A model generated the notes under the pieces. It was given only the letters and a program-made list of their open reading frames with translations, made no database searches and was not told where the DNA came from. Position numbers and translations under genes: made by a program. From a virus: DNA of 28,974 bases. The stretch is taken from positions 1-28,974 of IMG/VR virus record IMGVR_UViG_3300031951_000912. One strand, 5' to 3'. Below, piece by piece: positions 7,488 through 24,068 of this stretch (position 1 is the first letter of the stretch; each line of letters begins with the position of its first letter).

Positions 7488-10343
7488 ATGTCCACATTTG
7501 ATCTGCTTGACACCGTACTCCCAACGGAGGGACGGTACTGCGTGATTGGTATAGGGCGGTTTCCCGATCAGAGATTTGCAGATACCAGAGAAGAAGCTGA
7601 AGAAATAATCCAAGAGTTTGTTCGTGACAAGGTCGATGCCTATTTTGGTTGCGCTAAGTTTGGTGAGGCAGACGACCGCACACACGACAACGCCAAGTAC
7701 TTCCGCTCAGTGTGGATAGACATTGATTGCGGCCCGACCAAGGGCGTACCAAACGCTAAAGGGATTATTGAAGGCTACCTTGACCAGTACATAGGACTGG
7801 CCGAGTTCAAAAAGTTTTGCAAAGCAGTCGGCTTACCCCAACCAATCTTGGTGAATTCCGGTAACGGCATTCATGCCTACTGGCTACTTGAAGAAACGCT
7901 ATCCCGCAAAGAATGGGAACCGTTGGCCAAGCGGCTTAAACAACTGTGCAAAGAGCACGGCCTGATTGTTGATGAGAGAGTGTTTGAAGCGTCGCGTGTC
8001 CTGCGCCCGATGAACTCGTTTAATTTCAAAGACCCCAGTAATCCAAAACCTGTGGAGATTTGGAACGAGAACTCAGCAAGGATACCTGCCGAGGAGATGC
8101 GCAAGTTGTTGGGCGCACCTGAGCCTAAACCGGAAGAAGAAAAGCCCGACTTCGTGCCTTCGTCGATGAGTCCGATGATGGAAGCACTGATGGCCAACAA
8201 GGTCAAGAAGTTCAAGAACATCATGCTCAAGGCCGAGAACGGCTGTGCGCAACTCAACTACTGCTTCACAAACCAAGCCGAGATTGACGAGCCACTGTGG
8301 ATGTCAGCGCTGTCGATTCCAGCTTTTTGCGTAGACGGGGACAAAGCGGCACACAAGATGTCCGACCAACACCCCGAGTATGACCCCGCCGAGGTGGACA
8401 ACAAACTCAGGAACATACGCAAGCGCGGTGGCCCACACCACTGCACAACATTTGAAGAGCGCAACCCCGGTGGGTGCGATGGGTGTGTACACAAAGGCAA
8501 GATCACTTCACCTATCGTGTTAGGAATAGAAATAGAAGCGGCGGAAGAAGCCGACAACGAAGTCGTGGTTGAAACCGACAAAGGAGAGACCAAATACCAA
8601 ATACCTGAATATCCGTTTCCGTTTTTCAGGGGTAAGAAGGGCGGTGTGTATGTGCGCCCCGCCGAGGACGAGGAATCTGAACCAAAGCTGATCTACGAAC
8701 ATGACCTGTACGTGGTCAAGCGGATGAAGGACAAGGAGCTTGGGGAGATAGCTTTGTTCAGGCATCACCTGCCGCATGACGGTGTGAAGGAGTTTTCAAT
8801 CACAACTGCGGCGATCTCATCGAAGGACGAGCTACGCAAGCAACTTGCGCAACAGGGTGTGATGGCACACCACAAGCAGTACGACAACCTTGCAACGTAT
8901 GTCGTTACATCAGTAAAAAATTTGCAGTACACAAAGAAGGCAGAAACAATGAGAACACAATTTGGATGGGTCGAGAACGACAGCAAGTTCATCATGGGCG
9001 ACAAGGAGATTACCAAGGACGGCACGTTCTACAGCCCACCGTCATCAACAACTGAATTCTTTGCCGAGAAGGTTCACACCAAAGGCGACATGGAGAAATG
9101 GAAAGAGGTGTTCAACCTGTACGCGATGAAGGGCATGGAGCCACATGCGTTTGGGGCACTGACAGCGTTTGGTTCGCCACTGATGAAGTTCACCGGACTC
9201 AAGGGCGCAATCATCAACGTGATCTACGAATTTGCCGGATCAGGAAAATCAACCATCCTACGCATGTGCAACAGCGTGTACGGAATGCCGTACGAACTCA
9301 TGTCGATTGAGAAGGACACGCTCAACGCCAAGATGCAACAACTGGGTGTGATGAACAACCTGCCCAACACAATCGACGAGATCACCAACATGCTGCCCAA
9401 GGACTTCTCAGACTTGGCATACGGCATCAGTCATGGCCGAGGCAAGAACAGGTCAATGTCACAGGTCAACGCCCTGCGGGTCAACAACACATCATGGCAG
9501 AACATGACCTTGTGCTCGGCCAACGCCAGCTTTTACGAGAAATTGACTGCATTGAAGAACAGCCCGGACGGTGAATCAGTGCGGTTACTTGAGTACAAGA
9601 TAGAGCCGAACGACTTGATTGGCGTGGCCAAGGGCAAGGAGATGTTTGACCACCAACTGAACAACAACTACGGCCATGCTGGGGAAATCTACCTTACGTG
9701 GCTGGTGAACAACCTAGAAGAAGCCGTTGATCTGGTCAAGAAGGTTCAGGCCCGACTGGATAGGGAAGTCCAGTTTACCGCACGGGAACGCTTTTGGTCG
9801 GCCACAGCCGCTTGTAACATTGCCGGTGGTTTGATTGCTCGTCACCTTGGCCTGCACGACTTTGATATGGGCGCGGTCTACGATTGGCTCAAAGCAATGC
9901 TGGGTGAGATGCGCCACGATGTGAAGCCCCCGCAGTCAACTCCGATTCTCACGCTTGGTGAGTTCTTGACCAGCCATGCAAACCATACTTTGGTGGTCAA
10001 TGGGGAGGTGGATGCTCGAAGTACTTTGTCGGCACTACCAATTCAGGAACCGAAGTTTGAGTTGCTGGTACGCTACGAGCCAGATACACAACACGTTTAC
10101 GTTGCAGCCAAACAGTTCAAAGAGTTTTGCGTCAAGCAGCAGGTCAATTACAAAAGTTTGCTCAAACAGTTGGGCGACCTTGAGGTATATACGGAGCCTT
10201 GTAACAAGCGTATGTCCAAGGGTATGAAGATCGTGTCCCCGCCGATACGTACCTTGAAGTTTGACGCATCGAAGTCTGAGTTCCTACGCATTGACGTGAT
10301 ATTGGGCATTGATGAAAATCGAGACAATCTCTTATCAGCTTGA
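7488..10343 (+). CDS. AEP-type primase fused to helicase
   Basis: A 951-residue replication protein. Residues 1-200 show the archaeo-eukaryotic primase signature: D78-x-D80 in SVWIDIDCG, SGNG-x-H (124-129), then R-x2-R-P-x3-F-N in SRVLRPMNSFNF near 168-180. A linker and helical part follow, with a Cys group C319-x10-C330-x2-C333 (next to HH) that may bind zinc. The C-terminal half is a P-loop ATPase: Walker A GSGKST at 584-589, Walker B-like IDEI at 629-632, and a basic/polar sensor stretch near 690. This is the architecture of phage and plasmid primase-helicases that both prime and unwind. It probably does the work of T7 gp4 here. GAGG-type ribosome site weak; coupling to the HTH gene is likely. 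Architecture firm; the helicase subfamily (DUF927-like or SF3) is not settled. Confidence 0.9.
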   Translation: MSTFDLLDTVLPTEGRYCVIGIGRFPDQRFADTREEAEEIIQEFVRDKVDAYFGCAKFGEADDRTHDNAKYFRSVWIDIDCGPTKGVPNAKGIIEGYLDQYIGLAEFKKFCKAVGLPQPILVNSGNGIHAYWLLEETLSRKEWEPLAKRLKQLCKEHGLIVDERVFEASRVLRPMNSFNFKDPSNPKPVEIWNENSARIPAEEMRKLLGAPEPKPEEEKPDFVPSSMSPMMEALMANKVKKFKNIMLKAENGCAQLNYCFTNQAEIDEPLWMSALSIPAFCVDGDKAAHKMSDQHPEYDPAEVDNKLRNIRKRGGPHHCTTFEERNPGGCDGCVHKGKITSPIVLGIEIEAAEEADNEVVVETDKGETKYQIPEYPFPFFRGKKGGVYVRPAEDEESEPKLIYEHDLYVVKRMKDKELGEIALFRHHLPHDGVKEFSITTAAISSKDELRKQLAQQGVMAHHKQYDNLATYVVTSVKNLQYTKKAETMRTQFGWVENDSKFIMGDKEITKDGTFYSPPSSTTEFFAEKVHTKGDMEKWKEVFNLYAMKGMEPHAFGALTAFGSPLMKFTGLKGAIINVIYEFAGSGKSTILRMCNSVYGMPYELMSIEKDTLNAKMQQLGVMNNLPNTIDEITNMLPKDFSDLAYGISHGRGKNRSMSQVNALRVNNTSWQNMTLCSANASFYEKLTALKNSPDGESVRLLEYKIEPNDLIGVAKGKEMFDHQLNNNYGHAGEIYLTWLVNNLEEAVDLVKKVQARLDREVQFTARERFWSATAACNIAGGLIARHLGLHDFDMGAVYDWLKAMLGEMRHDVKPPQSTPILTLGEFLTSHANHTLVVNGEVDARSTLSALPIQEPKFELLVRYEPDTQHVYVAAKQFKEFCVKQQVNYKSLLKQLGDLEVYTEPCNKRMSKGMKIVSPPIRTLKFDASKSEFLRIDVILGIDENRDNLLSA

Positions 10344-10554: not shown

Positions 10555-10585
10555 CCCCCGCCTGAGTGCGGGGGTTTTTTATTTT
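10555..10585 (+). terminator. Rho-independent terminator of the left arm
   Basis: A seven-pair GC stem (CCCCCGC at 10555-10561 with GCGGGGG at 10568-10574), a six-base loop CTGAGT, and six T followed by A and four T. It is a strong terminator for + strand transcription. Read on the - strand the stem is followed by TAAAAGG, not a T run, so it would not be a good terminator for the right arm. The stop codon of the giant gene (10579-10581) lies in the T run. Confidence 0.92.
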
Positions 10586-13500
10586 CGGCCAGCTTTCTCT
10601 GCTTCTTTAGCGGCTTGACGGGAAGGTTTGAGGGCTTTGGTAAACAGTCCCGCGTCCTTATCGGTAAGAGTAACGCCGCGCCATGATTCCGCACGTGACT
10701 CGGCGCGTTGTTCAATTGAATCCAAGATGTTTTCATCCGTAATTTCAAACGTGGGGAAACGCTTGTTGAACTTAACTACGTCTTTGTTGATAAGTTTATT
10801 GAATTCCTTAAAATTTTTATTACGGAATTGTTTTTCAATTTCATCGGTTAACGTATCGCGCTCATTGACAATCCTTTGTTTCAAACCAATTACTTTGAAA
10901 TTCACATACTGTGTGTTGGCCAGCAGATCAGAACGGAAACCGACAGCCTGCCCAATTAACTCACCTGTGCTGAACGCATCTTTAGACAAGATTTTTACGC
11001 CCTTGTTGTCTTTTGCGCCTTCAGTGAATAAATCGTAAGCAGTCATAAAGTTGCGGAACCCAGCAGGAAAAGTTTTTTGCACACCTTTGTTGATGTCGCC
11101 ATGATAAAACGCTTCGATACCCTCAGCCAAAGACAGAAGCATGTTTATACCGGGGCCAGCTTTTTCTATGGCAAGATTTATAATCTCGTCTTTAATCCCT
11201 TTTGTTTCTTTGCTTTCACGTATCCACAGATTGTTAAGGCCGGTGCGACCTGAAATATCAAGACCAGTCAAAGCGTTTGCAACTCCACGTTCTACAACTT
11301 CCGACAATTTTTTACCGCCGATTTTTACGCCGCCAAGTTGTTCCTCAAGCCAAATAGTACGGAACCACAACTGAAAGTTCATAGACTTCATGTCTTCTGG
11401 CCAGTCGTCATCCTTCATTTCTTCCCAAGCCCAACCAAGCAAGCCCATGACTACGCTGAACATGGGAAGGCCAACAGCGCCAGCAAGAATAAATGAAGTA
11501 CCCATAGTGCCAAAGAATTTTTTAGCGGCTTCAGCACGGGTGCGCCCGTCCATTGGGACAGCCATCTCTTTGAAGTTCTTTAGCAGGAACAAAGTCACGT
11601 GCAGCGGATACATCATGAATTGAGTCAATACCTTGCCCGGCAAACTGCGCATGAATCCGGGTCGGTTGTAGTCACCATAGTTGCCAAGGGCTTCATTGGT
11701 GTCGTATGTTGCCTGCTCAATAGACTGTTCAAAGGTTTTGCCCGCTTGACGGTTCAACCTGAAAGAAGACATGAACATCATTTCACGAGAGAGGCGCTCA
11801 GTTGAGTGCATCAAGCCGCCAAGTACAAGCATGTCCACGGTGGACTTACCAAAGCTCGCAATTGGGGACGACAAGTTTTCGGTGGGGGTCTTTTTGTAAT
11901 CAAAGACTGCGTTAGCATACGTAGACGTCGTTACATCGCGGGCCAACATTTCACGAACCGCTTTGCGTTCTTCTGGGGTCAATGCTTTTGAATGTTCAAC
12001 AGAAGGCGCAACCCAAGACTTAGTGCCATCTTTGTTGTCTTTGTATGCGCCAAACTGTTGCCACACCTTCATCATGCGGCCCATTTCGCGGGTAGCGTTG
12101 ACTGTTCCGTATCTAGACAACACCGGCATACCGGTTTGGAAAATACTCAAAGGTTGCAACAGTGCGGAACTTGCGCCGCTCAAATAGAAAATGTACGACG
12201 CTTTGTTGAGTAAACCAACAAACTTAGCTGCTGGGCCTTCTACAAAAGCACCCAAAGATTCACGAACGCGATTGCCCATTTCAGTGACAAACGGCTCATA
12301 TGTTGGGCGGTTTAAAATTGAATCTTTTGCTGCCGACACAGAATTACGTAGCAACGGGGCGTACTTGATACGAGCAAGCTGCGTTGCCATCTTTGCAGTG
12401 GTGTGCGCCACATTGCGTAATAAGTCTGGACGGAAACCAGTTATCCCTTTGCGGTGAATAAACTGCTTACGGAAACTTTGATCCGGCATTGATTGCAAGT
12501 ACACCTGATACACAGCGTCTTTGAGAGTTTCTTTTGCTTCAGTATCGCCAAGGTCTGCGCCATCAATAGTGTTAAAAATTTCTATTAGCAAAGCGCTACT
12601 ATCCGCAGTGCGGTTGCGTAAATCTCTAATGCTGTTGCCGTGTACAAATTCTTGGTCGGTCAAGAGTTCCAACAAATTGTCGGCGCGGCGTTTTTCAAAG
12701 GCCGAGTTAGACTCGCCCGGTTTTTGTTTGACACGCTCATCAGCAAACTTTTGCATGGCGTTATCGCGTTCTTCAGCGGTTTCAAACATGAAGAACTTAC
12801 GGGTCTTGCCTTTACCAATTGCCAAGTAAAAGTCTCCCACACGCACCAATGGGAAGTACGGCGTGATCTTGCTACCGGTTTCGTAGATTGACCTGATCTT
12901 CTTCATCAGGTTTGCTTTTTCTGCAATCGGCAACTTGGAGTCAGTGATCTGGTCGTCGAGTAACTGAGTAAAGTACTGAGACAGACGTTCAAAATGTTGT
13001 TTGATCTGCTTATACACACGCTGACCATTTGCGCCAAGTTCTTTGTATTGCTTGTCCAACTCGGCATTGCGTACTTTGGCCAACGGGTCTGACGGGTCTA
13101 CTTCTGCAAGAGTAGACATAATCGTAATTTTGTCTAGCTTAGCCCGCAATGTGTGGTCGGCACGGAACGCACGTTCAATATCTTTGGTCAATTCTCCCGC
13201 CGATTTCAACAACTGAAGTGTCATGCCGTTCATCAAGCGCAGTAAACGCGATGTATTTTTTAACTCCGGCACTGTGTCTCCAGCCCAATCAGTTAAAAAT
13301 TCAGTGGTAGGTAGTTTGACCAAAGCGTTGCGCTGCATGAGCGTTGCGCGTTTCCAAAGAGCTTTGAGTGCGGGTATAACTTCAGTTGGGTTCTGCAACA
13401 TTTGAAGCACTGTCACTGCTTGAGAGAAATCGTAGCCTTTCTTAGACTCTGAGTATTGTTCGGCGGCAACCTTGACCGCCCTATCAACTTCTTTTTGCGT

Positions 13501-16500
13501 CCTTACTGCATCTCCGACTTCCTCAGCTTCGTTATTAAGTCCTTCACCGATGCTGACTTTTCCAGCACCCCCAGTGCCCTGCCCAGTGCTTGCGGATAAG
13601 CTTGGTCGCCATTCGTCTCCTGCTCCGCCAGTGCTTTCCATTGGCTTAGAAGAACCTTCATTCTCGATTTGCTGGTACCCGCCAGCGTCTTTGAAGCGGT
13701 TTCCACGAGGCTTGAGATTTCCATCACGGAACTCCTTGTTCAAAAAGTTAAAAATATCTTGGTTAGTTTTGATATGGCTGGTTAAATTTTTCTCCAGCGA
13801 AGCCAAATTTAAATTTGGAGAAACCTTCAACAATATCATTACCCGTTGCATTTCACTTGCAAAATCAGCACCGTGGCTCCGCACTCTAAAGTGCGCCAAC
13901 TCATGGATCATCGTACCAATCATAGACAGCGCAATTTCCTCCGGACTACCACGCAGGTCGGTTGTTGCAGGATTGATAAACATACCACGGAACGGCAATA
14001 TGATACTGACACCGTAATATTCATTATCAATACTTGTGCCAAGTGCCTGCTCAGCAAGAGAACCGTACTCAGCCCCAGAAGCAACCAAGGCATTACGAAG
14101 CGTTTGGAAAGTTTTTCCAATTGTTGCCAAGTACCTATCGTAGCGTTTGCCACCAAATTGCGCACGTGCTTTGTCTGAAAGAGACTCGCCCCCACTCTTT
14201 AATGACTCAGGTAACCACCCAAGGTTTTCTAATTGGTTCAAAATGGACTTAGCGTCACCCGTTAGTGTTCTTTCTACAGAAGTTCTATATCCGTCTTTAT
14301 CGAGACTAAAAACATCAAGCCCAATTATTTTGTTGTTTGAATCAAATTTGAGTAGAAACTCTTCCCCTGCTTCTGGGCTAAGTGTAAAGTCAAGTAACGT
14401 ATCTATAGGGTCTGAACTAGCTCTTATATACGTGGTGTTATCATGAATCATGACCTTTTGCGGGTCAATTTGATTTTGCGGTATGGTCAGTTCATCAAGA
14501 CGTGGCGCAGTATTTTTTAAATCGTCAAGAGACAACTCAGGAAGCTGACGGTTATTGACATACAACACGCCGTCTCTAACTTCAACTTCATCGCCGGGTT
14601 TGATAAGCGTAAAGGCGTTGTCTGTCATTGGGGCGTTAGGCTCCAATGTTTCTGCGGTAGTCAACGAACCATCGCTGTTTACGTACTGAATAGTGCCAAA
14701 GTTTTTTACACTCGCGGCCAAATCAAGTTGGCCATATATAGCAGTAATGTAGTTAAAGATTTTTTGGAAATCTTGGCCTGCTTGCTGAGAAAAGTTTTGT
14801 CGGTTTAAATCAAATGGATACGCAGCATCTTCAGGTTTTACGTTAGGCGCAGGAGATACGTCAACATAAAAAACTCGTTCAATTTGTTTGCCATCATAAC
14901 CGGGTCTATCTTTGATGTTGGTATCAAATTGCCACAAGCCGTTTGACAATATGTGCGTATTGCCTTTGTATGGGGGCCTTGCCTTTTCTTTTGTTACGTA
15001 AACACGTGCAGTGCCCCAAGCAAAATTTACATTTGCAAAAGGAGTGTAGTCTTGGATTGGAAAATTGTTTCCAAGGTTTAAAGTTTTTTCACGCCCATTT
15101 CTTGTTACCGTTACATCTATGTCATCGAATAAAGGACTGAACTCTAAGACTGGAGCATCTTCTAAATCGTACACATCAAATTTAATTTTCTTTTCTTCGC
15201 CAGTAGATGTGTCCGTATATGTTTCTGGTACTTGGATAACCACAGCCGTACCGTGACCGTCGGGAAACAAGGATTTATATTGCTCGATAGTGTCGGGATT
15301 GGATGAAGTGGTAATCTGTGGAGCAGGCCCAGAACCATCAAACGCTTCTTTTAAATCATCCCCAGTTGTTACCATACGTGACAACACACCATCGCGCAAA
15401 GACACAATTTCTAGTTTTTTGTTTTCAAACAAGAACAGCATCTTGGCAACACCAAGACCGCCTGATGCACGCTTAGTACCTTTGACAGTACCCGCAATCT
15501 GCAAAAACTGATTACCCATCACGCTGGTCGGCATACCGGGGCCGTTATCAACTACGCTTATGGTGCGGTTGCTGTCGTCTAACTTTATGTCAACCTTACC
15601 TTTTGTAATTTGCCCTTTTTCCATTCCCTCTTTGATTGCGTCAAAACCATTTTGAAACAACTCTTTGATGGATACCGCGCCAATATTTTCAGGTGAGCCA
15701 TACAGTTTAGTGCCAAGCATTTTGCTTAGTCGTTTCTGATTGACACTTGGCATGGCCGATATAGTTTCCCCCTGCACATCAGGGGTTGTATCTTTGCTTG
15801 TACGGCTGACCTGCTCGCCCTTACCTTTGAGCTTTGGTGGGCGGCTCTTCAAAATGTTTTCAGTAGCGACAATCAAGTCGGTCAAGGCGTTGGTATCGTT
15901 CTCACCCATACCAAACAAGTCACGTATCGCCCGCACAAAACGGCTCAAATACGATACGTCTTCCTCAAACCCTTCGGCGTGCATAAGGAAGTCTTGCATG
16001 GTCTCGTCTGTCAAACCATAAGCAACAAACTCGCGTGGGTCAGAGAAAATATCGCCGTCATACTTGAGCTTGACCATGTGCATTGGCAGCTTGTTTTGCT
16101 TGGCCAAATCTTCGTATGCACGCCCAGCACTGTTCATTGTGCGAATAAGGTCTTGGAATGCTTTTACAACCGGCTGGTTAAGGTAGATACCTTTGTCAAT
16201 AAAAGCTTTGGCCAAAGCAATCTTGCGGTTTGTCGCTGCGTGCAGCAACTCGTGCAGGACGGTGGTGTTATTTATGCCTTGGTCATTGCCAAAGGACGCA
16301 CCGCGCACGTATATGACTTGATCGCCTGTCTTGTAGTTTTCAACGTAGAGCGCAATTGAGCGATCCCATGCAGCGGCGTTCTTAGGAGTTTTTAATTGGT
16401 CAGGTACTTCTTGGCCTTCTTCAAGCACCACAAACCGAACCTTGGTTACAAATCCACGAAGACGTTTGGCCAACCGTTGTTGAAACTTTGTACCTGTCTT

Positions 16501-19440
16501 GGCAATATGGGATATTGCTTGCACACCTGTGGTGAACTTGTCGTACTTGGTATCTGCGGGTTCTTTGGTAGTAGTTGACGCAGATGGGCCAGACAGTTTG
16601 GCTTTGTTAACCGCATCAATACCAGCTTGTATCTCGGCTTTTTCTTTTGCAGAAATATCAGGGCGTGACAAAGCGGCGTTGATACGCTCGCCGGGTTTAG
16701 TTCCGCGCAAGGCTGGGTTGCCCTTGAGTATGAGCAGTTCTTTAATTGCCTCGCGGCGCTTAGCCCTTGTTGCTTTGACGGCTTCTTCGTATTCGTTCTC
16801 TGACTCAAACTCGTCTTCAGTTATTGGTTTGGCCAAAGCATCGAGCGTGCTGTTGATACGGGTAAGCGCACGTTCAGCACGAGCTTTTTCTGCTTGAACC
16901 GGCGCACTCTCAGCAAGTTTTTGTTTTTTCTGTTCTTCAGTAAGTCTTACTGGCGCACCACGGGGTTTGGGGGCAAGTTGTTTGACAGCGGCTTCTAGTT
17001 TTGTCCTTGCGTCGGCAAGAGCAGCTTGAGTTTGTTCGCTTTTTGCATAATAGTTTTGTCGTGCAGCGTTTGCGTAGTCCACCAAAGGTTGGCGAATAGG
17101 CTCGGGTACATGCGCAGGGAGTTCTGATGCGCTCTGGAATACGCCCTGCCGAGTATCACCTTGTCTTATAACGCCAGATTCTTTACCCGTTGGGTCTTTG
17201 ACAAACGTATCACCGTCGCTTGCAAACAAAACCTTAGCGCCATTGCCTAGCTCAAGCGTTTCCCTTGCACCGTCTTGTTTGTTTTCCTGCTCATTTGCGC
17301 TACGAAACCCTATTGCACTCGGTTTCGTCCCTTCTCGTTTAATAGTTCCTGCAACATCTTGTCCAGCAGAAACCACTCTACTTCGCTTAGCGCCTTTAGC
17401 TCCTCCGGGGGGTACGACTGCACCGGGCTGTCCAACCACTGGAACGCCTGTTCGACTTGTTGTGGGGTCAATTTGTCCAACATTTGTTTCTCCTTGTGCT
17501 TCTCTTGCAGCAAGCGCATCGGCCTCATCCTGTTCTTGTATTTCTGTTGCGGCTATTTGTACAGCTTCGGTTGGGTTAAAAGTCACACCCTCAGACAACA
17601 GTTCTTGTGCACGAGCTTTTACGCGATCTTCTTGTGGTTTAGTAACCAACTCAGCAGCAGCTTCTTTTTCTTTTATCTCTTGCCCAATTACTTGTGAAGT
17701 GGCAATACGGCGTGCGTCGTCGTCAGGTATGCCTTGTTCTTCAGCTATCTGTGTAGCCAGCGAATTGATTTGTTCTTCGCGGTCAAGATTTACTGATGCT
17801 TTACCGCCGAGGGGTGTTGGAGGAGTTACTTCCGCACCGGGGCGCACTGCACCTAAATCGGTGGTGATAGATGGTTCTCGTTCTAAGTCAACACCGGGGC
17901 GTTCTGCGCCAAGGTCATCTAAAGTAAATTCTTCCTGTTGCTTTTGCTGTCTTTGTTGGCGTTCTTCAGGAGCCAAAAATCCTTTTGACCGAGCAATCAG
18001 TTCAGACAACCCTTCGTAGCTTGTATCTTGCTGGTACGCGCCTTCACGGGGGGCAGGGGGAGCAAGCAACTCGGCAACTTTTTGCCCGCCTTTAACAACA
18101 CCTATGGTTGTACCCGCAGTCACGCCAGACTGAAGAATTGTTTGACGCAAAGTCTCTTCAAGTTGTTTGTACAAGTCCGTCAAGTTTGGGTTTTTGTTTA
18201 ACCCGATTTCTGGCATTGCATCAATTGCGTATTGCGTAGCAGTGGTAGCTAATTCTGAGGGCAGTTCAGTTGCAATAGATTGAGCCACGTACTTAGGCAC
18301 GCTATCCACGCCGTACTTGGCAATGTGAGATTTCAACCCAGCAAGAGCTTTGGTCATACCAAAACGCTCAAAGAACACTTCGGCTGCGGCTGTTGGGATA
18401 GCTCTTGCCGCCGATGCTTTACCAGACAAACCAGCAGCACGACCTTCTCCGTAGGCATCCCCAAACTGTTGAACTGCGGCCTGCGTTAATACAGGCAAAG
18501 CAGTACCTGTTACAGCACTCAAAACCAAAAACGGTGCTTGGGAACTTAAACTTGTCATTGCCCCTTGGAATGACTTTTCAAATATGCTTTCGCCTTGGGG
18601 GATAGCACCTTCACGGGCTTCTTCGATACGACGTGCGTTGTTTAAGTTGTTGCTAAATTGTTTATCACCAGTCAAATCTGCATAGGCTTGCAACAAACCC
18701 ATGCCCGACTTAGTAAATTGAGAACGTGTCCCCGCGCCAACGCGATCCATAAAATCAGCATCGGCAAGTTCTTTGGCGCGTTTTTGCGCTGCAATATCAG
18801 CTTGTTCACCCACCACATCAGCGGTCATTTGTTGCAAATCGGGTCTTAATCTCCCGCTCAACGCTTGCGCTTTAGCAAAATCTTCTGGGCGTTCTATACC
18901 CTGCTCAGCAAACCGTTCGGTTTGGGCTTCAAGGCGAGGGTCAAACTGCCTTGCTGTTTTAAGATCAAAGGATTTATCCATCGCCGCATAACGGCCAGCG
19001 ATAGCCCGAGCAGCACGGCCATATACATCTTGACGCTGTACCATTTTGTCCAATGCAGCTTGGCGCTGATCGGCTGGCAATGCGTTAAGTTGTGCCTGAA
19101 CTGCGTTTACAAACTTGGGGTTTACAACAGCTTTATCTTCGGTTGGAAGTTCAGGAATTTTCCTGTCTTCCATAATGCTGCGGTATGGTTTATTTTGTTG
19201 CTCAACGACAGATGCCCAAGCATCATCACCGCCCATAACATTTGATTCAGGGGGCGGGTTTACACGTTTTTGTGGCTCAGGATACCTTTTACCCTCTACA
19301 GTCCGAACAGGGCCTTGAGGTTTTCTGGGCACGTAATTTTTAACGTCCGCAGGTTTTTCCGCCGGAAACAAATCAGAAAGACCAAACTCTTCTTGAGGCG
19401 GTGGGGTTAATGCCTCTTCCAACGAAAAATCTTTAGCCAT
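10579..19440 (-). CDS. Giant polyvalent internal virion/ejection protein (2953 aa)
   Basis: One uninterrupted 8.9 kb gene. Residues 1-250 are disordered to helical; about 300-325 hold a hydrophobic Ala/Val/Leu segment; about 500-760 are low-complexity linker; 760-900 are coiled coil. Then come a zincin with HELLH at 1063-1067; a GHKL/Hsp90-type ATPase with the N-box Asn at 1264 (KELFQNGFDA), D1298-N-G-P-G-M and a Gly-rich SGGLG near 1326; and a second zincin with HELAH at 1846-1850 plus H1856-G-A-D-F. After a Gly/Ser linker, 2010-2940 form a long helical region with a membrane-like segment at 2648-2671 and FRNFMTAYDLFTEG near 2795-2808, like the C-terminal region of phage polyvalent (PLxRFG-type) proteins. 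Family knowledge: such proteins travel in the virion and enter the cell with the DNA. ATG with AAGGGG upstream, nine bases after the previous stop. Architecture seen; roles in ejection and anti-defence inferred. Confidence 0.9.
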   Translation of the reverse strand: MAKDFSLEEALTPPPQEEFGLSDLFPAEKPADVKNYVPRKPQGPVRTVEGKRYPEPQKRVNPPPESNVMGGDDAWASVVEQQNKPYRSIMEDRKIPELPTEDKAVVNPKFVNAVQAQLNALPADQRQAALDKMVQRQDVYGRAARAIAGRYAAMDKSFDLKTARQFDPRLEAQTERFAEQGIERPEDFAKAQALSGRLRPDLQQMTADVVGEQADIAAQKRAKELADADFMDRVGAGTRSQFTKSGMGLLQAYADLTGDKQFSNNLNNARRIEEAREGAIPQGESIFEKSFQGAMTSLSSQAPFLVLSAVTGTALPVLTQAAVQQFGDAYGEGRAAGLSGKASAARAIPTAAAEVFFERFGMTKALAGLKSHIAKYGVDSVPKYVAQSIATELPSELATTATQYAIDAMPEIGLNKNPNLTDLYKQLEETLRQTILQSGVTAGTTIGVVKGGQKVAELLAPPAPREGAYQQDTSYEGLSELIARSKGFLAPEERQQRQQKQQEEFTLDDLGAERPGVDLEREPSITTDLGAVRPGAEVTPPTPLGGKASVNLDREEQINSLATQIAEEQGIPDDDARRIATSQVIGQEIKEKEAAAELVTKPQEDRVKARAQELLSEGVTFNPTEAVQIAATEIQEQDEADALAAREAQGETNVGQIDPTTSRTGVPVVGQPGAVVPPGGAKGAKRSRVVSAGQDVAGTIKREGTKPSAIGFRSANEQENKQDGARETLELGNGAKVLFASDGDTFVKDPTGKESGVIRQGDTRQGVFQSASELPAHVPEPIRQPLVDYANAARQNYYAKSEQTQAALADARTKLEAAVKQLAPKPRGAPVRLTEEQKKQKLAESAPVQAEKARAERALTRINSTLDALAKPITEDEFESENEYEEAVKATRAKRREAIKELLILKGNPALRGTKPGERINAALSRPDISAKEKAEIQAGIDAVNKAKLSGPSASTTTKEPADTKYDKFTTGVQAISHIAKTGTKFQQRLAKRLRGFVTKVRFVVLEEGQEVPDQLKTPKNAAAWDRSIALYVENYKTGDQVIYVRGASFGNDQGINNTTVLHELLHAATNRKIALAKAFIDKGIYLNQPVVKAFQDLIRTMNSAGRAYEDLAKQNKLPMHMVKLKYDGDIFSDPREFVAYGLTDETMQDFLMHAEGFEEDVSYLSRFVRAIRDLFGMGENDTNALTDLIVATENILKSRPPKLKGKGEQVSRTSKDTTPDVQGETISAMPSVNQKRLSKMLGTKLYGSPENIGAVSIKELFQNGFDAIKEGMEKGQITKGKVDIKLDDSNRTISVVDNGPGMPTSVMGNQFLQIAGTVKGTKRASGGLGVAKMLFLFENKKLEIVSLRDGVLSRMVTTGDDLKEAFDGSGPAPQITTSSNPDTIEQYKSLFPDGHGTAVVIQVPETYTDTSTGEEKKIKFDVYDLEDAPVLEFSPLFDDIDVTVTRNGREKTLNLGNNFPIQDYTPFANVNFAWGTARVYVTKEKARPPYKGNTHILSNGLWQFDTNIKDRPGYDGKQIERVFYVDVSPAPNVKPEDAAYPFDLNRQNFSQQAGQDFQKIFNYITAIYGQLDLAASVKNFGTIQYVNSDGSLTTAETLEPNAPMTDNAFTLIKPGDEVEVRDGVLYVNNRQLPELSLDDLKNTAPRLDELTIPQNQIDPQKVMIHDNTTYIRASSDPIDTLLDFTLSPEAGEEFLLKFDSNNKIIGLDVFSLDKDGYRTSVERTLTGDAKSILNQLENLGWLPESLKSGGESLSDKARAQFGGKRYDRYLATIGKTFQTLRNALVASGAEYGSLAEQALGTSIDNEYYGVSIILPFRGMFINPATTDLRGSPEEIALSMIGTMIHELAHFRVRSHGADFASEMQRVMILLKVSPNLNLASLEKNLTSHIKTNQDIFNFLNKEFRDGNLKPRGNRFKDAGGYQQIENEGSSKPMESTGGAGDEWRPSLSASTGQGTGGAGKVSIGEGLNNEAEEVGDAVRTQKEVDRAVKVAAEQYSESKKGYDFSQAVTVLQMLQNPTEVIPALKALWKRATLMQRNALVKLPTTEFLTDWAGDTVPELKNTSRLLRLMNGMTLQLLKSAGELTKDIERAFRADHTLRAKLDKITIMSTLAEVDPSDPLAKVRNAELDKQYKELGANGQRVYKQIKQHFERLSQYFTQLLDDQITDSKLPIAEKANLMKKIRSIYETGSKITPYFPLVRVGDFYLAIGKGKTRKFFMFETAEERDNAMQKFADERVKQKPGESNSAFEKRRADNLLELLTDQEFVHGNSIRDLRNRTADSSALLIEIFNTIDGADLGDTEAKETLKDAVYQVYLQSMPDQSFRKQFIHRKGITGFRPDLLRNVAHTTAKMATQLARIKYAPLLRNSVSAAKDSILNRPTYEPFVTEMGNRVRESLGAFVEGPAAKFVGLLNKASYIFYLSGASSALLQPLSIFQTGMPVLSRYGTVNATREMGRMMKVWQQFGAYKDNKDGTKSWVAPSVEHSKALTPEERKAVREMLARDVTTSTYANAVFDYKKTPTENLSSPIASFGKSTVDMLVLGGLMHSTERLSREMMFMSSFRLNRQAGKTFEQSIEQATYDTNEALGNYGDYNRPGFMRSLPGKVLTQFMMYPLHVTLFLLKNFKEMAVPMDGRTRAEAAKKFFGTMGTSFILAGAVGLPMFSVVMGLLGWAWEEMKDDDWPEDMKSMNFQLWFRTIWLEEQLGGVKIGGKKLSEVVERGVANALTGLDISGRTGLNNLWIRESKETKGIKDEIINLAIEKAGPGINMLLSLAEGIEAFYHGDINKGVQKTFPAGFRNFMTAYDLFTEGAKDNKGVKILSKDAFSTGELIGQAVGFRSDLLANTQYVNFKVIGLKQRIVNERDTLTDEIEKQFRNKNFKEFNKLINKDVVKFNKRFPTFEITDENILDSIEQRAESRAESWRGVTLTDKDAGLFTKALKPSRQAAKEAEKAGRK
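13503..13724 (-). CDS. Candidate overprinted small gene inside the giant gene (73 aa)
   Basis: Same strand as the giant gene, +1 frame. The ATG at 13724 has AAGGAG at 13737-13732 with a seven-base spacer; a GTG one codon earlier also has it at four bases. The product is a regular helical protein (MEISSLVETASKTL, then VLLSQWKALAEQ, ALGRALGVLEK, VKDLITKLRK) with balanced composition, no Cys, one Trp and a basic end. In the giant frame the same bases encode a Gly/Ser/Thr-rich linker (about residues 1906-1979), just after the second zincin. A sound ribosome site plus a protein-like alternate frame over a linker is what an overprinted gene looks like. No homologue recognised. Could be chance. Confidence 0.5.
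   Translation of the reverse strand: MEISSLVETASKTLAGTSKSRMKVLLSQWKALAEQETNGDQAYPQALGRALGVLEKSASVKDLITKLRKSEMQ
17310..17483 (-). CDS. Candidate overprinted small gene inside the giant gene (57 aa)
   Basis: Same strand as the giant gene, +1 frame. AAGGAG at 17495-17490 is six bases before the ATG at 17483. The product is compact and protein-like: LTPQQVEQAFQWLDSP, then PPEELKALSEVEWFLLDKML and QELLNEKGRN, two amphipathic helices joined by a Pro turn with Trp at the same place in each. The layout (L-x-P-x-Q...W-L, PPEEL, L-x3-E-W-x-L, Leu-rich helix, Lys/Glu end) resembles in my memory a small conserved phage protein, which I cannot name or verify. In the giant frame the same bases give a Gly/Pro/Val/Arg linker (about 653-710). 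This is the stronger of the two nested candidates. Confidence 0.6.
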   Translation of the reverse strand: MLDKLTPQQVEQAFQWLDSPVQSYPPEELKALSEVEWFLLDKMLQELLNEKGRNRVQ

Positions 19441-19449
19441 AGTGACCCC

Positions 19450-22068
19450 TTATTGTGCTGCTACGGGCGTGAATTTTTGTGTCTTTGCGTTCCATTTACC
19501 GGGGCCTTTTGACGTACTATATACGACTCCATCTTTTAGGTCGGCGGCTGTAGCGTTGGCAGGTAACGGTTGTGCAGCAGGAGGTTTTGATGTTGGTTTG
19601 TCGCCGCTGAGTTTTCGCTTATTTTCAAGTTTAATTTCAATCTCTCTGTCAATTAAGCGTTTTTCAATCTTATCTTTTTCGTCTTGGCTGGTGGCATTCT
19701 GCCAATCTTCATTACGCAATGCGGCTTTCTTGCCTTTAGTATTAGCGTCTTCTGCTTCTTTGCTGCTGAGTTCTTCTTTTGACACGTCAACTTTTGATTC
19801 TTCAACATCCTTTTTAGTGTCCCCAATGTCTGACGTGACATTGCTTGAAACAGTACTTGTAGATTTGATGTCTTTCGTGCCTTTTAGCTCAAGGATTATT
19901 CGCGCCGCCATAGCATTTAAACGCGTCTTGTACTGCGCAGGTGTCTCACCTTCTTTCATTGGGTTTGTAGATTTAAGGTCTTCCGCAATATCTTCTTTGT
20001 TTTCAATGTCAAAGTTGCGTGTTGCAGCTTTGGCTGGTGCGTTGAGTTTTACCGCTTTTGCAGCAACTTCTCCCAGTGCTTTGTTTTTCGCAATATGCGC
20101 GGCATCCGCAGCCTGTTGGTCTCGGCGACCTGCTTCGGTAAGTTGACGTGCTTCGCCAACCAGACCAACTCGCATCTTGTACTGTGCGTCTTCTAAATTG
20201 TTTTTAGCACTCATGAGCGCACGTTTTTCTGCACGGTCGGCTTGAAGGGCCTTGCCGTACATGTCTCCAAATTTCCCAGCACCCGCACCTAAACCGCGAA
20301 CAGCGTTACTGCCCTGAAGAATCGCTGGTATTGCTGCAATAGCAGCCAAACCTTTTTGTTGTCTTAGCTCCCCAGCCTGCTGCTTTTCTTGTTCAGCTAT
20401 ACGGTCGCCCTGAGCTTTGTATGGGTTTGGGCCAGCCATGTCTTGTACTTCTTGGTAATACGCTTTTGTATTTGCTCGGCGTTGGTCTTCCGTCATTGTT
20501 CTAGGCTGGTAATTCATTATGTTTTCATAAGACTGACCCAGCCTTTGATTCCACACTGCTCTCTGGTCTGCATCGCCAGTGCCGCCTTCTTCGTCATCGT
20601 TTAACTCGGCTAGGACTTCCCGCATCTTGTCTTCAGTTACTAAACTTTGATCGTTTCCTGCAAACCCCATAATGCCGCCCCGTGCGGCTTGTACCATTGG
20701 TGCTTGTGGAGTTGCTTGTATTGTTGGTGCCTGTTCGGGCATCATGTTGTACGCGCTGGCCAAGCCTCTGCTTTCTGAAGCACGGGTAGCCAACTCTGTC
20801 TTGGCGGCTTGAAGTTCTGCCGCACTGGATGGTTGTTGAATGATTTGCTGAAGCTGCTCATCGCTAAGTTTGGATACCGCCCGCGCCATTTCTGTTGGGT
20901 CATCCATTGGAGAATGAGCAATATCAGTATCTCCGCCGTCACGGAACGCAACCATGCCACCACCGGCATAAGACCCAGCCAAGCCACCCTCTGCTTTAGG
21001 AGAAGGCGATCCATACATTTGGTTAAGGCCATAAGCGCCCATACCAAGTGCGCCCACCGTCTGCAATGTAGATGGAGGAGCTTGATAAACCGATTGCGTA
21101 GACTGCTGACCCAGCGGCAAGCCACGAACCATGTCGGACATGAAGCCCAACTGTTTATACGGGTAGTTCTGTTGGTTGATGAAGTCCTGATACGCCATGT
21201 CCAGCGGACGCTGGGCTTGCTGTTGCTGCTGTTGACCGTATGCGCTTTGCAGTTGGTTGATGCCCATCTTCTGGCCATATTCGGTTTGACCGAGTTGACC
21301 CAACTGCCCTGCGGCTTGCAAGCCAGTCTGAAGACCCTGCATACTCAAACCAGCGCCGTACTGGCGTGACTGCTCACCCATTCGTTGAGCTTCTAAATTT
21401 CTTCCCATGTCAGCATTAAATTGCTGTTGGGCGTTTTGAAACGCTGCTTGTTGTCCTGTGGCTGTTATGCCTTGGAGTTGTGAATTCAAAGCTCGTTGTG
21501 CTTCAGAATCCACAATCGCGGAACGACTTCCACCAAACGCGCCTTGTTTAACAGCTTGAGCCTGACGCATGGGTTGCGCCATTTCGAAGTCGCGCAAAGC
21601 CTGACCTTTTTGGTAATCCACCACATTCTGTGTGTACGGATTCATGTAGTCTTGAGCGGCTTGGTTGTTGAACTGCCCGCCTTGGAATTGACCGCCTTGG
21701 TAATTTGTGTTTAAAGCACCAAGGCCAGCCATGCCAGCCATGCCTGAAGCTTGATTTAACAGCGCAGAAGGCTGCATACCGGCAGCACCCGCAAAAGCTT
21801 GTTCTTGCATTGGCTGGAAGCCAGCAATGCGCTGCCCACCGTATTGTTGGTACGGGTTTTTGTTAATATCAGTCAGCGCAGACGCTTTGGCCAGTGTGTC
21901 TTTGGCGTAACCACGTGCCCACTCAGGTAACTCTACAGTGGTTGTAGTTTTATCAGGGGTGCTTGGAGCGTCACCGCCGCCATATACGCGACCACCGGGT
22001 TTTAGCCGAGTTACGCACTCGCCAAGGGGTTCGCCTAAAGCGTAAAGTTGTCTGCGTGAATAGTTCAT
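19450..22068 (-). CDS. Gln/Ala-rich internal virion protein (872 aa)
   Basis: A large structural-type protein with no catalytic motif. Residues about 1-60 contain a Gly-rich stretch and a Trp-containing helix; 70-310 are very rich in Gln, Gly, Ala and Met, with a GGQF repeat pair and a run of Gln near 275-285; 350-375 hold Gly/Ala/Met turns (GGLAGSYAGGGMVAFRDGG); 380-850 are charged and helical, with a strong coiled-coil stretch of Lys/Glu near 740-830. Such composition is usual for internal or ejection proteins and tape-like proteins of short-tailed phages. GGAG is five bases upstream of the ATG. It overlaps the GNAT gene by four bases and ends nine bases before the giant gene, so the three are probably co-translated and may form one internal complex. 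Structural role likely; exact function unknown. Confidence 0.78.
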   Translation of the reverse strand: MNYSRRQLYALGEPLGECVTRLKPGGRVYGGGDAPSTPDKTTTTVELPEWARGYAKDTLAKASALTDINKNPYQQYGGQRIAGFQPMQEQAFAGAAGMQPSALLNQASGMAGMAGLGALNTNYQGGQFQGGQFNNQAAQDYMNPYTQNVVDYQKGQALRDFEMAQPMRQAQAVKQGAFGGSRSAIVDSEAQRALNSQLQGITATGQQAAFQNAQQQFNADMGRNLEAQRMGEQSRQYGAGLSMQGLQTGLQAAGQLGQLGQTEYGQKMGINQLQSAYGQQQQQQAQRPLDMAYQDFINQQNYPYKQLGFMSDMVRGLPLGQQSTQSVYQAPPSTLQTVGALGMGAYGLNQMYGSPSPKAEGGLAGSYAGGGMVAFRDGGDTDIAHSPMDDPTEMARAVSKLSDEQLQQIIQQPSSAAELQAAKTELATRASESRGLASAYNMMPEQAPTIQATPQAPMVQAARGGIMGFAGNDQSLVTEDKMREVLAELNDDEEGGTGDADQRAVWNQRLGQSYENIMNYQPRTMTEDQRRANTKAYYQEVQDMAGPNPYKAQGDRIAEQEKQQAGELRQQKGLAAIAAIPAILQGSNAVRGLGAGAGKFGDMYGKALQADRAEKRALMSAKNNLEDAQYKMRVGLVGEARQLTEAGRRDQQAADAAHIAKNKALGEVAAKAVKLNAPAKAATRNFDIENKEDIAEDLKSTNPMKEGETPAQYKTRLNAMAARIILELKGTKDIKSTSTVSSNVTSDIGDTKKDVEESKVDVSKEELSSKEAEDANTKGKKAALRNEDWQNATSQDEKDKIEKRLIDREIEIKLENKRKLSGDKPTSKPPAAQPLPANATAADLKDGVVYSTSKGPGKWNAKTQKFTPVAAQ

Positions 22069-22541
22069 ACTGGCTCCGTGCTCAATATCTTTGTGTAGAC
22101 TTTGTCGGTGTGCTTGTACCCAAGGTACTCAAACAGCCGAGAATTGTCCAAATGAATTTTGGTATGCATGATGATTCTGTTGACACCATCTTGCTTGAGC
22201 ACGTCCTCGGCATACTGGAACAATCTAATCCCAGTACGGCCTTGACGGAATTCTTTCCTGAGAAAATATATGTCTTCAAAGGCGGTCTTGCAGGACATAT
22301 AGTGTAAATGCGGTTGCACAATAAAGATTATGTAACCAATCAAGTTCCCTTCAGCCCTGCATGTGACGCACCGCAACATACCGTTTACTGCCAAACGCCC
22401 GTAGGCCAAGTAGTCTGGCGCTAAGGGAAAGTCTTTGGTTACACACAGTTCATCGTAATGTTCTTGCAAAATGTGCTGCAACTCATCCACAAATGTGGCT
22501 GGGTCTTCATTGGCATATACGATGCTTGTGACTGCGTTCAT
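22065..22541 (-). CDS. GNAT-family N-acetyltransferase
   Basis: A 158-residue single-domain GNAT protein. The order of elements fits the fold: N-terminal helices, a beta strand (GNLIGYIIFIVQP, about 65-77), then the acetyl-CoA loop and helix RQGRTGIRLFQYAEDVL (99-115), and a final strand with N133-S-R-LFEYLGYK (133-143), the usual end of motif B. The pyrophosphate loop reads R-Q-G-R-T-G, close to the Q/R-x-x-G-x-G/A rule. Members occur in the structural clusters of several phages and presumably acetylate a virion or host protein, or a small molecule; the substrate cannot be told. ATGA overlaps at both ends tie it to the two internal-virion genes. Ribosome site weak, consistent with coupling. 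Confidence 0.88.
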   Translation of the reverse strand: MNAVTSIVYANEDPATFVDELQHILQEHYDELCVTKDFPLAPDYLAYGRLAVNGMLRCVTCRAEGNLIGYIIFIVQPHLHYMSCKTAFEDIYFLRKEFRQGRTGIRLFQYAEDVLKQDGVNRIIMHTKIHLDNSRLFEYLGYKHTDKVYTKILSTEPV

Positions 22542-24034
22542 GCTGGCAAATATTTTTCAGACCGGCTGTTTTTGGCAACCTTGCCTTTACCTACAGTTTT
22601 GCCGCGAGCCTTCTGAATCCTGTCCATCATGGCGTACAGCTTACGTGCGCCAGCCTCAGTCGAGCCGTTGCCCAACTCAGAAACGATACGTGCAGGTATC
22701 ACAAACTCACCGTCGGCTAAACGTGCAGGTTGCTTTTTGCCTATCACAGCAGGGATAGAGTCAGACACGCCGTCACCGGGGCCACGAAGCAGTCGGCCAC
22801 CATCTGAGTAGCCACCAAGGTTGTAGCCCGCATCAGAGATACCACCAGAAGCCATCATGCCACCGTCAGCAGCCCGTGGGACATACCGTTGGTTGTAATA
22901 TTTCTGCTCCCGACCATATGGGTCGGACACGGGTGTTGGGTTTGTTGCATTGGCCTCGTACGTGTACTGCTGGCCGGGGTCAGAATCAACGGGTTTTTTC
23001 TCCCTTGCTTTCTCCTCTGGTGTAAACGCTGTTACAGCCATACCCGCCGCCTGCAATGGGTTTTCCTTAGCGTAATTTACAAGGCTGTCAAAAGTTGCCC
23101 CCTTCTTCAGTGCTTCAAACCGCTGGGCGGTAGTCATGTTTTCTGGAGTAAGAGCGGGAGGGTTGGCGGTAGCAGTTGCTGCGGGTGAGGGTACTGACCG
23201 CGCCAAGTTGTAGTTACCCTCCATAGGTGCTTTTTGGTTTGTTATATCGTAATTGGCCATCCTTGGCGCTGAAGTATCCAAAGGCGCTTTCATACCCGGC
23301 CCCGTGCCTGTTGAGATGTAATCAAACTTTAGAGCAGGAGCGGCTTCAACTACAGGGGTTTCAGCTATAGGGACAGAAGCGGGAGGAAAATCGGGGCCGC
23401 GTAATGAAGTAGCTGGGCTAACTACGGGTGCTGGGGCAGGGGCAGGGGATAACTGTGTAGAGGCGACCTCAACTCGAGGTACAGCCTGCGTTACTTGAGG
23501 TATAGGCTGCGTTACATTCCCAACAGCATCTACTGTTACTGGGCTTGGGTTTATAGGCGCGGTTTCAAACAAATCCGGTCTTGGAAATTTACTTGCATCC
23601 ACAATAGGGGCTGGGGGTGTTGCTACTGCCGCCGCTTCTGGGGCTGCCGTCGCCGCCGCTTCTGGAGCAACCGATGATGCGCCAGCTTGCATCAAAGAAC
23701 CACTTAAACCAGCGCCACCATAAGCGCCCAAGCCAGCCATCAAGCCTTTCTTCAAGCTGCCTGTCGCAGCAGTGTATCCACCACCCACCATCAAAGCTGC
23801 CATAGGAGCGCCAACACCCGTTGCTGCCAAACCCGCGCCAATCACCATTGGGAGCATACGCTTCAAGAACCCAGCCTCGGGTAAACCCGTATGTGGATTG
23901 ATGGTCAGATGACCACCGGCAGCCATAGCCAAGTCGTTTAAACTCTTGACCTCGCTTTTTGACATGTGGACGAGGGTTGTATCTGGACCGCGACCATGCG
24001 CAGACAAGTGTTGTGCAGCGTGCTTTAGGCTCAT
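22538..24034 (-). CDS. Gly/Ala/Pro-rich internal virion protein (498 aa)
   Basis: The first 60 residues are helical and hydrophilic, followed by NPHTGLPEAGFLKRMLPM and an Ala/Gly/Met-rich hydrophobic region (about 60-120) that could insert in a membrane. The middle (about 125-330) is Ala/Pro/Val-rich and disordered, with alternating PAPAP. The C-terminal part (430-498) has a Gly-rich turn region (GGISDAGYNLGGYSDGG) and then a folded basic domain (IPAVIGKKQPARLADGEFVIPA, cut here) ending in Lys/Arg. The start at 24034 is chosen on GAGG upstream and because the longer reading to 24238 runs back through the preceding gene with a Cys/His/Gln-rich leader unlike protein. Probably an ejection or internal protein with the two large genes downstream. 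Confidence 0.78.
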   Translation of the reverse strand: MSLKHAAQHLSAHGRGPDTTLVHMSKSEVKSLNDLAMAAGGHLTINPHTGLPEAGFLKRMLPMVIGAGLAATGVGAPMAALMVGGGYTAATGSLKKGLMAGLGAYGGAGLSGSLMQAGASSVAPEAAATAAPEAAAVATPPAPIVDASKFPRPDLFETAPINPSPVTVDAVGNVTQPIPQVTQAVPRVEVASTQLSPAPAPAPVVSPATSLRGPDFPPASVPIAETPVVEAAPALKFDYISTGTGPGMKAPLDTSAPRMANYDITNQKAPMEGNYNLARSVPSPAATATANPPALTPENMTTAQRFEALKKGATFDSLVNYAKENPLQAAGMAVTAFTPEEKAREKKPVDSDPGQQYTYEANATNPTPVSDPYGREQKYYNQRYVPRAADGGMMASGGISDAGYNLGGYSDGGRLLRGPGDGVSDSIPAVIGKKQPARLADGEFVIPARIVSELGNGSTEAGARKLYAMMDRIQKARGKTVGKGKVAKNSRSEKYLPA

Positions 24035-24068
24035 AGTTGCCTCGTGTAAACAGGGGTGACTGATCGTA

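Follow-up and report, generated by a model that had tools for sequence, protein, structure and literature searches.

This locus raises the question of what a phage might do with a single 2953-aa chain that holds a predicted ATPase between two protease-like domains. The window, by which we mean the whole stretch of DNA analysed, is a complete IMG/VR virus record of 28,974 bases, and two of its genes are central here:

10579..19440, minus strand: gene of a giant, very probably polyvalent ejection-type protein (P0001, 2953 aa), from its open reading frame and the motif order in relatives
19450..22068, minus strand: adjacent gene of an 872-aa homologue of a DNA ejection protein (phrog_4287), from a PHROG match

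A first-pass annotation of the sequence had placed a 2953-aa open reading frame at 10579-19440 without stating its strand. We found it intact on the minus strand, with an ATG start and 0 internal stops, and the plus strand of the same stretch is full of stops. That annotation had also proposed a search of viral databases for the same domain order, and had named a chimeric assembly as something that would overturn its reading. The order HExxH, GHKL, HExxH was recovered in one open frame in 24 distinct IMG/VR relatives, of which three are cut by a contig or locus end (two at the 5′ end, one at the 3′ end) and three contain a further domain that separates zincin 1 from GHKL. Because so many distinct relatives keep this order, an assembly chimera is unlikely. 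A near-identity DNA search of cultured phages returned 0 matches; contigs of up to 67 kb carry near relatives of the giant gene.

The plus-strand genes of the window match endonuclease, DNA polymerase, exonuclease, HNH endonuclease, helicase and primase/helicase families, and the minus strand carries virion-structural, holin, endolysin, acetyltransferase and DNA-ejection genes, with the giant gene last. A 745-aa structural protein of the window matches 131 cultured-phage records; the eight listed are phages of 52–65 kb, some of these records being labelled ‘stabilization’ or tail-protein, and the virus is probably a short-tailed phage. The ejection-protein homologue ends 9 bases ahead of the start of the giant gene. 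Such a homologue lies at most 4 kb upstream in 48 of the 56 distinct relatives with room for it (directly adjacent in 26, 0.8–2.0 kb off in 22), and 50 of 69 relatives have a convergent primase homologue downstream. A GNAT-type PHROG acetyltransferase (22065-22541, minus strand) sits between the structural and ejection genes, and homologues of it are similarly placed ahead of the giant genes of several relatives. Within and across the giant gene, the following features were delineated, where L003 is a relative of the window:

18001..19143, minus strand: N-terminal region, residues 100-480, which differs strongly from one close relative to another in some cases
18472..18528, minus strand: hydrophobic stretch, residues 305-323, mean hydropathy 1.62
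15841..16548, minus strand: zincin-like domain 1, residues 965-1200, with HELLH at 1063-1067 and E1137 as candidate third ligand, from gp37 homology
13681..15840, minus strand: stretch differing from L003, residues 1201-1920, at 62–97% DNA identity
14491..15738, minus strand: predicted GHKL ATPase with transducer, residues 1235-1650, from Pfam, motifs and the predicted model
13636..14223, minus strand: zincin-like domain 2, residues 1740-1935, with HExxHxxxxxH at 1846-1856, from the motif, Pfam matches in relatives and the model
10582..13473, minus strand: C-terminal helical region, residues 1990-2953, common to DarB-like/PLxRFG giant phage proteins
11437..11493, minus strand: hydrophobic stretch, residues 2650-2668, mean hydropathy 2.19

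Residues 1235-1650 are a predicted GHKL ATPase, a Bergerat fold followed by a transducer. The window protein matched the Pfam families HATPase_c (E=1.3e-4) and HATPase_c_3 (E=2e-4) just under the curated cut-offs (24.9 versus a gathering score of 26.4, and 24.2 versus 25), and relatives pass the cut-off; in alignment A6, composed of the window and 48 more distant relatives, 48 of 49 members match HATPase_c/HATPase_c_3, at best with E=5.2e-12. An AlphaFold2 model of residues 965-1935, made from 75 sequences, had a mean pLDDT of 84.4. In fold searches with this whole core model the listed matches were filled by the GHKL part, and model residues ~268-682 aligned with Hsp90, TopoVIB and GyrB at Z scores of 16.7–19.7 among the 50 matches listed. 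These include the Hsp90 N-middle domains (8eob_A; Z 19.7, 289 residues, rmsd 4.0), TopoVIB (9o0g_D; Z 18.4, 289 residues, rmsd 3.9) and GyrB (3zkd_D; Z 18.2, 286 residues, rmsd 5.7), and Foldseek also matched MORC2 with DNA. All 74 rows with letters there have N1264 and D1298, and all 75 rows have K1333 and the transducer R1547. The N, G1, G2 and G3 motifs are present in the window protein and throughout the alignment with few exceptions (G1300 is A in 2 rows; G1328 is S or N in 5; G1395 is N or A in 4, with 7 gaps; T1398 is S in 2). The first-pass annotation had put a GHKL ATPase at residues 1264-1330 and held that a predicted structure lacking the fold would count against it; the motifs proved conserved, and the model has an Hsp90/GyrB/TopoVIB-like fold. 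The motifs and ~290 residues of fold are thus common to the window protein and to Hsp90, GyrB, TopoVIB and MORC, but unlike in those proteins the GHKL domain of the window belongs to a virion-type protein and is fused to a zincin-like domain. As a separate observation, 15 of the 49 members of A6, the window not among them, match the PADLOC type II restriction-enzyme model PDLC03419 (best E=6.6e-5), a match that perhaps runs through the GHKL domain.

The second zincin-like domain is equally well kept, with H1846, E1847, H1850 and H1856 retained in 75 of 75 alignment rows. WLM and YgjP were each matched by 35 of the 49 A6 members at E<=0.1; the window itself matched YgjP with E=0.0066 (score 16.9 against a cut-off of 26) and left WLM unmatched. 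The sole match among PDB sequences was Wss1p, weak at E=0.59 and with the same HExxHxxxxxHxxxF spacing. Zincin 2 has the HExxHxxxxxH and downstream F of WLM/Wss1 and YgjP metallopeptidases, although the window protein scores too low for the curated family threshold. In the model, both zincins place their HExxH in a helix that follows three strands and precedes another helix, a layout that matches the core of the polyvalent MPTases as described in the main text of Iyer et al. 2017 (PMC5512222). Both motifs claimed in the first-pass annotation are in place (HELLH at 1063-1067, and the second at 1846-1850, followed by another His at 1856), where the composition of P0001 would yield an expected 0.013 HExxH by chance. 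The zincin folds that it proposed are consistent with the helix and strand layout of the model, and zincin 1 found no convincing family match in Pfam. With dN/dS values against L002, L003 and L004 of 0.048–0.114 for GHKL and 0.097–0.197 for zincin 2, both domains are under purifying selection as judged from substitution ratios.

These two domains form a fixed pair. A wider set of 172 loci gave 77 distinct GHKL-bearing sequences, window included, grouped by a 70-residue GHKL stretch so that near relatives with the same stretch, such as L002 and the window, count once; L154 and L172 were too short for the 75-row alignment. GHKL and zincin 2 occur together in 77 of 77, and no open reading frame had either one without the other among the loci fetched by GHKL (the best 80 of 94) or by zincin 2 (69). 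Zincin 1 is more mobile. In the 61 of the 77 sequences that are open at neither end, where ends are those of the locus, it lies ahead of the pair in 24, lies behind it in 10 and went undetected in 27. Nine of the 10 cases behind the pair are partial matches of ~56–72 residues after an HEV-x-HA-like motif, only L055 having the whole domain, and the 27 are an upper bound for absence, with L140, L143 and L161 showing missed HExxHAAT-like motifs by eye. The ‘zincin-GHKL-zincin core’ of the first-pass annotation therefore gives way to a conserved unit of GHKL and zincin 2, because these are paired in all 77 sequences and zincin 1 lies before the pair, lies behind it or goes undetected. Distance correlations did not indicate that GHKL and zincin 2 co-evolve more than other parts of the protein.

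Against cultured phages the pair matched seven records at E<=1, all weakly on the GHKL side (E 0.01 to 1), namely topoisomerases, RIIA and a hypothetical protein. A GTDB genome search with the GHKL alignment gave 17 pattern stretches and 0 confirmed relatives, and one with the pair gave 126 stretches and three loci, L176, L177 and L178 (the L178 match covering ~62 residues). On L176, a MAG-binned contig of Deltaproteobacteria, GHKL and zincin 2 lie in a chain ending in a peptide-deformylase domain. On L177, a MAG-binned contig of Neisseriaceae, the halves of the pair are in separate open reading frames across a masked stretch, and E replaces H at the third-ligand position of zincin 2 (by eye). 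The genes around it look ligase-like and ribonucleotide-reductase-like by eye, which suggests that L177 is a phage contig.

Zincin 1 points to a different relationship. All 27 rows with letters keep its HExxH and E1137, and its profile gave three matches to PDB sequences at E<=1: the ‘Internal virion protein’ 9sfn_G (E=4.2e-17), the PhiM1 gp48 tetrameric ejection protein 8vb2_A (E=0.01) and an unrelated-looking phosphoribosyltransferase (E=0.097). The entry 9sfn is presumably of phiKMV type, its length of 1337 aa being equal to that of gp37. By tblastn, zincin 1 matched 103 cultured-phage records, of which every one of the 25 listed is from a Pseudomonas phage, with phiKMV gp37 among them; one comparison with 12 gp37-like proteins gave a probability of 97.8% (E=1.3e-12). 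On these profile matches, phiKMV gp37, which is an internal virion protein, has a HExxH domain homologous to zincin 1. HExxH is present in 10 of the 12 fetched gp37-like homologues, two of the homologues being 98% identical; one exception has no letters at the motif and the other has Q and Y for E and H. The phiKMV gp37-like protein at L173:3921-7934 and its homologues in L174, L181-L187 and L189 keep the HExxH and a downstream E, and the records label them ‘endolysin domain’ or exotransglycosylase. The wider region of gp48 that matches zincin 1 is likewise endolysin/exotransglycosidase-like in the PhiM1 authors’ description of it. From the conserved motif, phiKMV gp37-like internal virion proteins may be metallopeptidases.

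The homologous HExxH...E domain and the proximity of another ejection-protein gene are what the window protein has in common with phiKMV gp37 and PhiM1 gp48, which are T7 gp16-type ejection proteins. It differs in size, with 2953 aa versus 1230–1374 aa in 11 of the fetched gp37-type homologues and 1014 in one trimmed record, and in its other parts. The GHKL and zincin-2 models matched nothing in the 12 gp37-type homologues, the N-terminal region reached a probability of 0.2% against gp37-type proteins, and the C-terminal region showed only weak homology with the C-terminal body of gp37/gp48-type proteins (probability 24%, E=8e-4 against gp37-type C-termini). Zincin 2 reached a probability of 0.4% against gp37-type proteins, so zincins 1 and 2 are not demonstrated copies of each other.

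The C-terminal region connects P0001 to another group of giant proteins. About 750–800 C-terminal aa match DarB-like/PLxRFG giants (phrog_10089, E=6.1e-52). With the whole of P0001, 135 cultured-phage records were matched; the 40 listed fall within residues 2099-2941 at 21–28% identity, and several are annotated as DarB-like, methylase or helicase. The remaining 95 include many Pseudomonas phages and probably match via zincin 1. None of the 40 is among the seven records that the pair matched at E<=1, which suggests that the pair sits where other giants carry other effectors. DarB-like antirestriction proteins are defined by methylase and helicase domains, whereas the window protein matches neither; an identity as a DarB methylase/helicase was ruled out, as Pfam gave no adenine methylase or SWI2/SNF2 ATPase match at E<=1. 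A Foldseek search of the PDB with a model of the C-terminal region gave no match at E<=0.001, and VIA returned two ejectosome-protein rows with Z scores of 5.5 and 5.0, which are below the telling level of the tool and serve as hints. Two stretches of P0001, residues 305-323 and 2650-2668, pass a threshold of mean hydropathy >=1.2 over 19 residues, in agreement with the membrane-type segments noted earlier near both ends.

Taken with its setting, P0001 is very probably a polyvalent ejection-type protein. Several disparate domains lie in its one chain (the predicted GHKL fold and the HExxH domains), its gene adjoins phage structural genes, and LPD39 is matched at residues 2032-2177 below the Pfam cut-off (21.4 bits against 27). 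Relatives add ADP-ribosyltransferase and LPD domains, which argues for polyvalency: ART-PolyVal lies between zincin 1 and GHKL in L009, L020 and L027 (E 5e-18 to 1e-27), in L161 an ART precedes the pair and LPD38 lies close to the C-terminus, LPD22 occurs in L103, and L105 has ART and LPD39 behind the pair. The LPD matches of L103, L105 and L161 are above the Pfam cut-off, as are matches to ART-PolyVal in relatives, and that of L084 is below it. The polyvalent character assigned in the first-pass annotation is upheld by these domains, by the adjoining ejection-protein homologue and by the resemblance of zincin 1 to phiKMV gp37. The polyvalent proteins of Iyer et al. 2017, as their main text describes them, are also giant multi-domain phage proteins with zincins; the window differs from them in its fixed pair of GHKL and WLM/YgjP-like zincin, and the word ‘GHKL’ has 0 occurrences in the main text of PMC5512222, figures and ftp tables being outside this count.

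The best explanation of these features, to which we give an even chance, is that GHKL and zincin 2 form an ejected, ATP-gated protease effector of a polyvalent phage protein, where we infer the packaging, ejection, ATP gating, protease activity and target. The delivery part would consist of the C-terminal DarB-like helical region and the phiKMV-gp37-type zincin 1, with effector modules plugged in ahead of or between these parts, here the GHKL-transducer and the WLM/YgjP-like zincin. P0001 would travel in the virion and be ejected together with the DNA; once in the cytoplasm, which is rich in ATP, GHKL would bind ATP and close or dimerise as its Hsp90, GyrB and MORC relatives do, and this closure would switch on or position the attached protease. 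Zincin 2 would then cut a host protein, possibly a DNA-bound one, and zincin 1 may process or release domains. Hsp90, GyrB and MORC are known for ATP-driven closing or dimerisation, Wss1 is a protease of DNA-bound proteins, and the periplasm is without ATP. Since the protease was only seen fused to a GHKL switch, it would most simply be ATP-gated, with ATP signalling arrival in the cytoplasm. The resemblance to WLM/Wss1 makes DNA-bound host proteins plausible targets, at less than an even chance. A further-reaching version is doubtful: the GHKL clamp and zincin would be a new type of injected effector that is inert in the virion and periplasm, fires in the cytoplasm and strips away or cuts host proteins, perhaps DNA-bound defence proteins, its GHKL-zincin alleles being swapped between near-identical phages to match their hosts.

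Other readings were weighed against this one. In line with the suggestion of the first-pass annotation, P0001 could be a self-processing polyprotein, its GHKL part being an effector that both zincins release by cleaving the chain, either inside the capsid or once it has entered the cell. Two conserved zincin-like domains do flank GHKL in the clade of the window, and zincin autoprocessing is proposed in the main text of Iyer et al. 2017 (PMC5512222), where processing of P1 DdrB is cited; the same text reports that the N4 virion RNAP is packaged unprocessed despite its MPTase. We regard this reading as unlikely, as flanking is not required when, of 61 sequences, 27 have no detected zincin 1 and 10 have it behind the pair, and zincin 2 was never seen without GHKL. 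A movable or undetected zincin 1 beside an invariant pair fits an ATPase-coupled protease better than two flanking proteases that free an ATPase. It is distinctly unlikely that P0001 is a part of the ejection machine, in which GHKL would be an Hsp90-like refolding or DNA-handling aid to entry and the zincins would remodel the envelope or ejectosome. The best structural matches being Hsp90 N-middle domains, the match of zincin 1 to internal virion proteins and the nearby ejection-protein gene are all in its favour, but the 40 listed of the 135 cultured-phage records match the C-terminal region only, and none was among the records matched by the pair, so the pair is not generally needed for ejection.

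The least probable of the readings considered is a DNA-clamp counter-defence, with the GHKL-transducer clamping and shielding incoming DNA like MORC, MutL or TopoVIB and zincin 2 being regulatory or inactive. The fold matches to MORC2 with DNA and to TopoVIB are consistent with it, as are the restriction-enzyme model matches of those 15 A6 members and the protection of P1 DNA by DarB recounted in the main text of PMC5512222. Its difficulty is that the catalytic residues of zincin 2 are kept in every one of the 75 rows, unlike in an inactive domain. The ATP-gated protease effector thus stays our preferred reading.

We also compared DNA identity along the giant genes of close relatives. The window and L003 are 97–100% identical over residues 481-1200 and 99–100% from residue 1921 to the end, against 62–97% over residues 1201-1920; they also differ elsewhere in the gene and in neighbouring genes, in the bins 8401-9000, 18001-18900, 19501-19800 and a number of others from 20701 to 24300. 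Among pairs picked for detail because of their discordance in an earlier comparison, the GHKL-zincin 2 pair is 82–96% identical in L010/L016 against mostly 95–100% in the flanks, and 88–98% against 94–99% in L022/L028. The pattern is less clean in L014/L015 (pair 79–93%, behind it 92–96%), L169/L170 (pair 78–91%, flanks mixed) and L065/L069 (pair 74–96%, behind 93–100%, ahead equally variable). L084/L086 show the reverse (pair 99–100%, rest of the gene mostly 76–94%), and there is little or no dip at the pair in L045, L048 and L079 among themselves or in L082/L088. The N-terminal region is the most variable part in some pairs, and residues 100-480 have distances of 0.71–0.76 in four pairs in which the C-terminal halves are 0–0.09 apart. 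A 36-residue difference in G2-G3 length separates the partners of the otherwise near-identical pairs L010/L016 and L014/L015.

Compared pair by pair, GHKL was less identical than the C-terminal region in 14 of 15 pairs with a C-terminal identity >=0.93 and in 26 of 46 at 0.85–0.93, and then in 3/11, 29/324, 6/307 and 0/1008 pairs of ever more distant bins; choosing pairs by the same C-terminal identity that is compared biases these counts towards a high C-terminal value. As a control, one C-terminal half was used to pick close pairs and the other half was compared; pairs share members in all of these comparisons. GHKL was still less identical than the unselected half in 16/17 and 13/15 close pairs, and so were the 260 residues ahead of the pair (16/17 and 14/15); GHKL was lower than these 260 residues in only 9/17 and 7/15. 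As the 260 residues vary as much as GHKL, everything ahead of the C-terminal region varies and the pair is not singled out. Over distant pairs GHKL is the more conserved of the two (mean 0.46 versus 0.27 for the C-terminal region). From these alignments, some lineages appear to have swapped alleles of the pair en bloc, with breakpoints close to the borders of the pair, in a protein that has a mosaic front.

Polyvalent proteins, GHKL ATPases and WLM zincins are each already known separately. A fixed fusion of GHKL with a WLM/YgjP-like zincin was not found in print in the open-access literature, and GHKL and zincin/metallopeptidase are treated separately in the relevant parts of PMC7824862. If the preferred reading is true, an ATP-switched protease would join the list of what phages may inject, the pair would be a concrete place to seek host targets or defences, and giant polyvalent proteins would be linked to the internal ejection proteins of phiKMV-like phages. 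The comparison also draws attention to a pattern, HExxH...E, that is conserved in these ejection proteins and that records label only as ‘endolysin domain’ or exotransglycosylase. The closest predicted viral structure in BFVD was A0A516L4L2, an entry without description that is likened to the window protein by predicted structure (30% identity over 784 alignment columns, E=2.9e-52). Two giant-virus proteins in BFVD were also aligned with the core model, with gaps included in the column counts: A0A1V0SGC9 of Hokovirus (702 aa, 803 columns, TMq 0.30) and A0A5K0UA26 of Yasminevirus (759 aa, 823 columns, TMq 0.27).
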